NCBI RefSeq assembly: GCF_013408985.1
Contig: NZ_JACBZT010000001.1
Span: 2,976,001-3,040,000, forward strand
Direction: 5' to 3'
Source: Petropleomorpha daqingensis
GTDB taxonomy: Bacteria; Actinomycetota; Actinomycetes; Mycobacteriales; Geodermatophilaceae
Length of the DNA stretch: 64,000 nt
A program made the position numbers and the translations under genes. A model generated the notes under the pieces. The model had not been told where the DNA came from and ran no database searches. It saw only the letters and a program-made list of their open reading frames with translations. Shown here in pieces: positions 2,529 through 4,392 of the stretch. The stretch's first letter is position 1; each line of letters begins with the position of its first letter.

Positions 2529-3587
2529 TCAGGCGCGCACGTCCGCGACGACGACGGAGAGGTTGTCCTCCCCACCCCGGGCCAGGCCCAGTTCCAGCAG
2601 GGTGTCGACGGCGGCCTGCGGGCTCGCCCCGGAGAGCGCCAGCGCGGCGAGCTCGTCGTCCGGCACGTGGTTGAACAGACCGTCGCTGCACAGCACCAGC
2701 CGGTCGCCGGGCACGACCGCCCGCTCCACCGCGTCCAGCGGTACGTCGGGGCCGACGCCCAGCGCGCGGGTCAGGACGCTGCGGTGCGGGTGGCCGACGG
2801 CGTCGGCCTCGGTGAGCTCGCCGTCGCGGACCATCTGCGCGGCCACGGTGTGGTCCTCGGTCAGCCGCTGCAGCCCGCCGTCGCGCACCAGGTAGGCCCG
2901 GCTGTCGCCGACGTGCACGACGCCGAGCACGCCGTCGCCGACCAGGCCGGCGGCGACCAGCGTCGTCCCCATGCCCTCGGACCCGGCCGTGCTCGACCCG
3001 CGCTCCCAGACGGCGAAGTTCGCGGCGCGGACCGCCGTCGCCAGCTCGTCGAGCGAGCCCCCGGTGAAGCTGGCGGCGACCAGCTCGGTGGCCAGGCGCG
3101 AGGCGACCTCGCCGCCGGCGTGGCCGCCGAGACCGTCGGCGACGGCGACGAACCGGGAGCCGGTGACGATCGCGTCCTCGTTGTTCTCCCGGACGAGACC
3201 GATGTCGGTCCGTCCGGCGCAGTCCAGGTACGCCATGGTGTTCCTTCCTGTCGGTCGGTCGGCGGCGCAGCCGAGCAGGGCGAGCGCCTGGTCGAGCGCC
3301 TCGTGCCGGCGCTCGGCGTCGTCGCGGACACGCGCCGCCCAGGCGCGCAGCCGGCCGGGATCGCGGTCCCGGAGCAGCAGCGAGATCTCGGCCAGCGGGA
3401 TCCCGGCGTCGCGCAGCGCGTCGATCAGCCGGGCGTCGCCGAGCTGGGCGGGGGAGTAGTAGCGGTAGGCGGTGTACGGGTCCACGGCCGCGGGCGTCAG
3501 CAACCCGCTCGCGGCGTAGCTCCGCAACTGCTTGGGCGACAGCCCGGACCTCGCCGAGAAGTCGCCGATCGGCATGAGCTCGTCCAC
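2529..3587 (-). CDS. MerR-type DNA-binding domain fused to a PP2C-type Ser/Thr phosphatase
   Basis: A 352-residue two-domain protein. Residues about 5-75 are a MerR winged helix (IGDFSARSGLSPKQLRSYAASGLL, then AYRYYSPAQLGDARLIDALRDAGIPLAEI), followed by a short helical linker. From about residue 117 comes a complete PP2C domain: TDIGLVRENNEDAI, VADGLGGHAGGEVAS (metal Asp), LVVAAG-like strand, VGDSRAYLV, SDGLFNHV and GGEDNLSVVV (metal Asp). All canonical PP2C metal-binding aspartates are visible, so it should be active. No cysteine metal-sensing loop is present. The fusion suggests a transcription factor coupled to protein dephosphorylation. The GTG at 3587 sits 7 bases after a -10-like box, so translation may be leaderless. 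Confidence 0.9.
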   Translation of the reverse strand: MDELMPIGDFSARSGLSPKQLRSYAASGLLTPAAVDPYTAYRYYSPAQLGDARLIDALRDAGIPLAEISLLLRDRDPGRLRAWAARVRDDAERRHEALDQALALLGCAADRPTGRNTMAYLDCAGRTDIGLVRENNEDAIVTGSRFVAVADGLGGHAGGEVASRLATELVAASFTGGSLDELATAVRAANFAVWERGSSTAGSEGMGTTLVAAGLVGDGVLGVVHVGDSRAYLVRDGGLQRLTEDHTVAAQMVRDGELTEADAVGHPHRSVLTRALGVGPDVPLDAVERAVVPGDRLVLCSDGLFNHVPDDELAALALSGASPQAAVDTLLELGLARGGEDNLSVVVADVRA

Positions 3588-3625
3588 GTCGGGCAGCCTG
3601 AGGCCTGACCGGCGGGCAAGGTCAA
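3588..3625 (-). promoter_or_regulatory. MerR-style promoter with 19-base spacer before the MerR-PP2C gene
   Basis: On the minus strand TTGACC (3625-3620) and CAGGCT (3600-3595) are separated by exactly 19 bases, the elongated spacing typical of MerR-controlled promoters. An imperfect dyad, CTTGACC and GGTCAGG around a 9-base centre, sits across the -35 box and spacer. The -10 box is weak (only A2 and T6 match). It ends 7 bases before the GTG, and the -35 box overlaps the stop codon of the upstream tetR gene. Autoregulation is an inference. Confidence 0.5.
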
Positions 3626-4337: not shown

Positions 4338-4366
4338 TTGACAGGTGTACACGGTACACCTACGGT
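4338..4366 (+). promoter_or_regulatory. Promoter for the DUF4386 gene with TetR operator O1 inside the spacer
   Basis: TTGACA (4338-4343) and TACGGT (4361-4366) are 17 bases apart, a near-ideal vegetative promoter reading rightward. The spacer holds a perfect palindrome AGGTGTAC-ACG-GTACACCT at 4343-4361. A repressor bound here would cover both promoter elements. The complementary strand has TACCGT at 4356-4351, a possible -10 for the tetR gene. Confidence 0.75.
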
Positions 4367-4375
4367 CTCCGGCAT

Positions 4376-4392
4376 GGTGTACGCCGTACACC
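4376..4392. promoter_or_regulatory. Second TetR operator O2
   Basis: GGTGTAC-GCC-GTACACC repeats the O1 sequence with 7-base arms and the same 3-base centre. The centres of O1 and O2 are 32 bases apart, about three helical turns, so both sites face the same side of the DNA. O2 covers the expected transcription start and early leader of the DUF4386 gene. Confidence 0.75.

Follow-up and report, generated by a model that had tools for sequence, protein, structure and literature searches.

Among MerR genes, TipA gives two in-frame products, the longer a regulator and the shorter an effector, and regulates itself (PMC6078987, PMC2893106, PMC7762955). On the side of the PP2C phosphatases, the pneumococcal eSTP-RitR-DNA complex shows such an enzyme working with a DNA-bound regulator (PMC4601284), MspP binds phosphate through Arg17 (PMC3375153), and a 2025 survey of bacterial PP2Cs includes MerR among their partner domains (PMC12088040). 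We analysed a window of 64,000 nucleotides of Petropleomorpha daqingensis in which one gene joins a MerR half to a PP2C half, and compared it with these systems. Our literature search, whose coverage excluded most subscription journals, found no paper on two products from a MerR-PP2C gene.

The fusion gene occupies positions 2529–3587 on the minus strand and encodes a protein of 352 amino acids, hereafter L, starting with GTG at 3587 or possibly with an alternative ATG at 3575. As the first-pass annotation had proposed, a single frame encodes first a MerR DNA-binding domain (residues 5–73; 3369–3575, minus strand) and then a PP2C phosphatase domain (residues 120–352; 2532–3230, minus strand). 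Profile searches with the 352-aa protein supported both: Pfam MerR_1 scored above its cut-off at residues 5–73 (E 5e-13), PP2C_2 matched residues 135–312 (E 3e-13), and the NCBIfam model of Stp1-type phosphatases, NF033484, matched residues 127–348 (E 9e-63) with 212 bits, below its cut-off of 230. By sequence, the nearest solved chains were those of PstP (2cm1, 1txo) and Mycobacterium smegmatis MspP (2jfr), and the MerR half matched chains of BmrR and BrlR; a single-sequence AlphaFold fold of the protein (mean pLDDT 46) was too poor for use. The metal-binding residues of the PP2C domain, claimed earlier to be complete, are indeed all present: the catalytic set R133, D138, D151, G152, D228, D302 and D341 is invariant in 53 of 53 fused homologues, so that loss of the metal sites in close homologues, which would speak against an active enzyme, did not occur. 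The same seven residues are also invariant in 17 of 17 mycobacterial relatives without an intact MerR. The conserved MerR-PP2C fusion with an intact active site is thus real, and its sequence predicts phosphatase activity.

A family search for the same domain order found the fusion repeatedly across actinobacteria, and its architecture had already been annotated, so we rejected the idea that it is unique to this genome. It is sporadic in the window genome's own family, with one other full-length case (L027, G014:C20:93213-94253, minus strand), which sits on a very long branch apart from both main clades of the PP2C tree. It recurs in other families and in plasmid-collection records of Streptomyces, Embleya, Nonomuraea and Nocardioides; the two plasmid records examined each give it as a single CDS, called ‘MerR’ or ‘PP2C’, and its neighbours there are unlike. 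The PP2C tree separated clade I, with the window gene and the MspP type, from clade II, to which PstP is nearer. The tree of the MerR half did not separate one origin from two for the two fused clades.

Our initial set of homologues came from a search with full-length L as query. Because such a query favours in-frame fusions, we also searched two genera with PP2C-only queries. In these sets, MerR lay upstream in 59 of the 60 loci examined, the sole locus without it being L191, and in all 59 it was in frame, with no stop. This led us to reject an arrangement of two cistrons with a stop between them. An internal start was present in the linker of 58 of the 59 loci with MerR, 98% of them with a Shine-Dalgarno (SD) energy of -8 kcal/mol or better; the exception, L205, had no start codon within the linker interval tested. 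With 59 of 59 linkers open and 58 of 59 carrying a start, the internal start has therefore been kept as well as the fusion. Two loci, L194 and L198, have one TAG within each fused-type match, and may be broken genes or reflect alignment end effects.

The promoter of the fusion gene has a -35 box TTGACC (3620–3625, minus strand), which overlaps the TGA stop (3624–3622) of the upstream tetR gene, and a -10 box CAGGCT (3595–3600, minus strand) 19 bp downstream, the spacer covering 3619–3601. Both the boxes and the overlap had been noticed in the first pass, and comparison with homologues bears them out. A script run over each spacer length found a -10-like nAnnnT exactly 19 bp past TTGACC in 48 of 53 homologues, compared with 0% at spacers of 14–18, 20 and 21 bp and 8% at 22 bp. 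In the remaining five (L038, L044, L060, L061, L062) the script had taken a later TTGAC, and reading by eye showed that 19 bp fits from the upstream TTGACC, so that the total of 53 of 53 combines 48 by script with five by reading. The conservation of the 19-bp spacer is beyond chance. Spacers of 19–20 bp are a hallmark of MerR-activated promoters (PMC9909328), and the promoter of the fusion gene, with its 19-bp spacer and dyad, is of this type. The dyad itself had been predicted in the register CTTGACC/GGTCAGG. There is a dyad in the spacer, but that register, whose centre is promoter position 11, is less well conserved among the homologues (50% paired) and we replaced it by the best conserved one, centred at position 14 (62% paired). 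The predicted MerR operator is thus the CCTTGCCC-GCC-GGTCAGG region (3604–3620, minus strand), with its conserved centre at 3612. Two palindromes GTGTAC-N3-GTACAC (4345–4359 and 4377–4391), at the tetR start and between tetR and a divergent DUF4386 gene, are likely TetR operators.

Allowing up to three mismatches, we found a single copy of the operator in the genome, at the fusion gene's own promoter, and on this basis we rejected a wider regulon; since there is this one site, L probably controls its own gene, by autoregulation through predicted binding of L at this promoter. A relaxed operator pattern retrieved the own site and two sites with two mismatches, one of them upstream of another merR gene. 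That operator/promoter site (L148, G000:C1:5271343-5271373, minus strand) lies just upstream of the merR gene L006, which suggests that this gene too has a self-regulated promoter with a 19-bp spacer. In the clade of the window gene the start codon of L lies 6–7 nt past the -10 box and the SD before it is weak, so that translation of L is probably leaderless there; in the second, larger clade, L mostly starts with a leader and a strong SD.

A different kind of start lies in the linker, which reads ...CGA CCG ACA GGA AGG AAC ACC ATG GCG TAC..., with an SD region (3242–3251, minus strand; core AGGAAGG; -9.8 kcal/mol; kept in 51 of 51 homologues) ahead of an in-frame ATG (3236–3234) placed exactly at the beginning of PP2C. 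Neither this SD nor the ATG at 3236 appeared in the first-pass annotation. Initiation there would yield a second product, S, a free PP2C of 235 amino acids (2529–3236, minus strand). The linker of every one of the 51 aligned homologues contains a start codon, at residues 114–128; it is ATG in 47 and GTG or TTG alone in four (L040, L080, L084, L085). In the f31 clade (L083, L085, L086, L088) it is a GTG that has the strongest SD, and three of these genes have an ATG six codons later. The internal start stays while the length and sequence of the linker vary, and the SD sequence varies as well (GGAAGGA, GAGAGGGG, GAGGAG).

Taking the computed energy of pairing with the anti-SD as a proxy for initiation, 96% of the linker starts had an SD at -8 kcal/mol or lower, compared with 12% of 780 other in-frame ATG, GTG or TTG codons of the same genes. 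The mean energy observed was -10.2 kcal/mol, against -7.0 kcal/mol when the seven codons preceding the start were recoded synonymously (p 4.7e-7 for 16 cluster representatives combined). Gene by gene, p was at most 0.05 in 24 of 51 and not significant in 27 of 51, partly because Lys or Arg followed by Asp, Glu or Gly already yields a purine-rich stretch; as the amino acids themselves favour purines, this test is conservative. Codon choice pointed in the same direction, with AGG making up 32 of 46 Arg codons just before the internal start compared with 3.9% across these genes, and 9 of 14 when one representative per cluster was taken (p 7e-10); the homologues are related, so that such counts overstate independence, an effect which cluster representatives lessen without removing. 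The internal Met was swapped solely for GTG-Val or TTG-Leu, even though TTG makes up 5.7% of Leu codons. As a positive control we gathered 25 TipA genes by tblastn. Their best linker start, mostly at residues 110–115, had a mean energy of -10.4 kcal/mol and reached -8 kcal/mol or better in 84% of the genes, compared with 9% in the gene body, and the internal SD and start of the window gene are of this TipA class in both energy and position. The same genome also has a TipA gene with the MerR-TipAS layout (L116, G000:C1:2022599-2022949, minus strand), with a strong SD and an ATG at residue 110. A chance internal Met was rejected by the SD energies, the synonymous recoding, the AGG bias and the TipA control. 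Besides the fusion L, we predict S, a free phosphatase, as a probable second product of the gene.

We consider it likely that this is a self-regulating phosphatase gene of tipA-like design, making both the MerR-PP2C protein L and the free PP2C S. The proposal starts from what the sequences contain (the fusion, the conserved promoter, the internal start signature, the intact active site, the single operator, and the loss of MerR with PP2C kept); from there we infer that the cell makes S as well as L, that L acts as an activator at its own promoter, and what kind of signal it may read. The MerR half of L would bind the dyad between the -35 and -10 boxes, whose 19-bp spacing is over-long, and switch the gene on through DNA distortion. 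Ribosomes starting at the first GTG, probably without a leader in the clade of the window gene, would make L, and those starting at the internal SD and ATG would make S, the main output, a predicted soluble Mn/Mg-dependent Ser/Thr phosphatase. By analogy with TipA, the PP2C domain of L may serve as the sensing domain. The most likely signals would be a client in phosphorylated form or the occupancy of the active site by metal, either of which would change the seating of PP2C on the MerR dimer and lead to more phosphatase being made. More tentatively, the family could represent a widespread actinobacterial one-gene homeostatic circuit, in which the fused PP2C senses the state of phosphorylation or of metal and causes more free phosphatase to be made from the internal start; in the clade of the window gene, a leaderless L and an SD-led S could shift the L:S ratio under stress.

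Mycobacterial loci provide a comparison in which the MerR half is often missing. A relative of MspP is carried by 20 of the 248 genomes of a genus (f8/g19) that we call mycobacterial from its close matches to MspP. In three of these 20 relatives an in-frame match covers most of the MerR domain, one further locus matches MerR residues 80–110 alone, one has an out-of-frame MerR fragment, and fifteen lack any MerR. Where MerR is absent, the PP2C frame opens at the counterpart of the internal start codon. The number of Arg17 in MspP fits counting from the homologue of the internal-start Met, the equivalent in the S form of the window gene being Arg16. The upstream neighbour ends in ...TFTPEV in many MerR-less loci, as it does before the promoters of the fused L041 and L042; because of this shared ending, we regard them as one locus that has MerR in some genomes and lacks it in others. 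Since they keep PP2C from the internal-start codon, the free phosphatase appears viable by itself. The SD also survives in the MerR-less L100 and L102 and in L099, where MerR is a fragment; these three loci, with the internal SD and ATG retained, constitute a natural test case.

Such repeated loss of MerR with PP2C kept, together with the one operator in the genome, is what would be expected if S were the sole important product, the MerR half being a mere autorepressor or timer and the PP2C of L sensing nothing. We regard this explanation as rather unlikely, as the two domains are fused in frame without stops in 59 of 59 loci with MerR and a plain regulator would have no need of an attached phosphatase.

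The proposal of two products is better supported than the original one of a single product, in which L alone is made and dephosphorylates clients at or near its own promoter while the internal start lies idle. The frame kept open in 59 of 59 unbiased loci with MerR is in agreement with a single product, and because of it we consider L itself to be selected; the public records examined also annotate one CDS. Nevertheless, an idle start would hardly explain the conserved SD and start codon, the AGG bias and the swaps among ATG, GTG and TTG, nor the same signature in the TipA control and the retention of PP2C from the same codon after MerR loss, and we find this explanation improbable. The single operator and the PP2C kept after MerR loss are also easier to reconcile with a MerR half that sets how much phosphatase is made than with a general role in dephosphorylation at DNA. 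Another reading takes the internal SD and its start codon for relics of a once separate PP2C gene, without present use. PP2C genes normally need such a site and MerR-less relatives exist; a relic should decay, however, and this site has been kept over deep divergence and in two clades despite changed sequence and linker length. In the PP2C tree, moreover, the MerR-less mycobacterial genes fall within groups of fused ones, where the well-supported branches require at least four changes; this position makes them look like losses rather than ancestors, which leaves a relic very improbable. Finally, it is scarcely credible that the Lys/Arg-Asp/Glu/Gly-x-x-Met linker motif is kept for the protein with the SD as a by-product. 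The amino acids do account for part of the SD energy, as the synonymous mean shows, but the synonymous excess over clusters, the AGG preference and the replacement of Met solely by GTG-Val or TTG-Leu all speak against this reading.

If the two-product reading is true, one gene would contain the sensor, the activator or switch, and the enzyme that is switched on. The family would offer a one-gene answer to how bacteria adjust the amount of the few Ser/Thr phosphatases they have to their kinases. The two-product design of tipA would then not be specific to drug binding, but a reusable means of linking a MerR switch with the effector that belongs to it. The same reading predicts a second, unannotated protein from genes for which the two plasmid records examined give one entry, ‘MerR’ or ‘PP2C’, and it explains how a MspP-type phosphatase stands without a MerR half.

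Compared with the known systems, the window gene has the layout of TipAL/TipAS (tipA, Streptomyces lividans), a MerR N-terminus followed by a C-terminal effector domain, with an in-frame internal start and strong SD at 110–115 in TipA and at 114–128 in the MerR-PP2C genes. The C-terminus of TipA is the drug-binding TipAS (PF07739), for which a Pfam search found no match in the window protein, PP2C standing in its place; by domain content the window gene is therefore not a member of TipA, and it is TipA-like by layout. Two products and autoregulation have been demonstrated for TipA and are predicted here. With PstP/Stp1-type actinobacterial phosphatases the gene has in common the PP2C domain and its metal ligands, and the genome's own PstP-like protein is 46% identical over residues 109–350 of the fusion; these enzymes belong to another clade and have no MerR domain upstream. 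The passages of the 2025 survey on the MerR and PP2C arrangement describe no internal start, promoter or second product (PMC12088040). A PP2C acting with a DNA-bound regulator has a precedent in the eSTP-RitR-DNA complex (PMC4601284), in which, in contrast to the fusion, the two are separate proteins and RitR is not described as a MerR regulator. MspP (PDB 2jfr, 2jfs, 2jft, 2v06), placed through its 90% identical relative L095, shares the active-site residues of the window gene and belongs to the same PP2C clade (clade I, 100/94); L095, the locus closest to it among those found, lacks the MerR half that the window gene retains.
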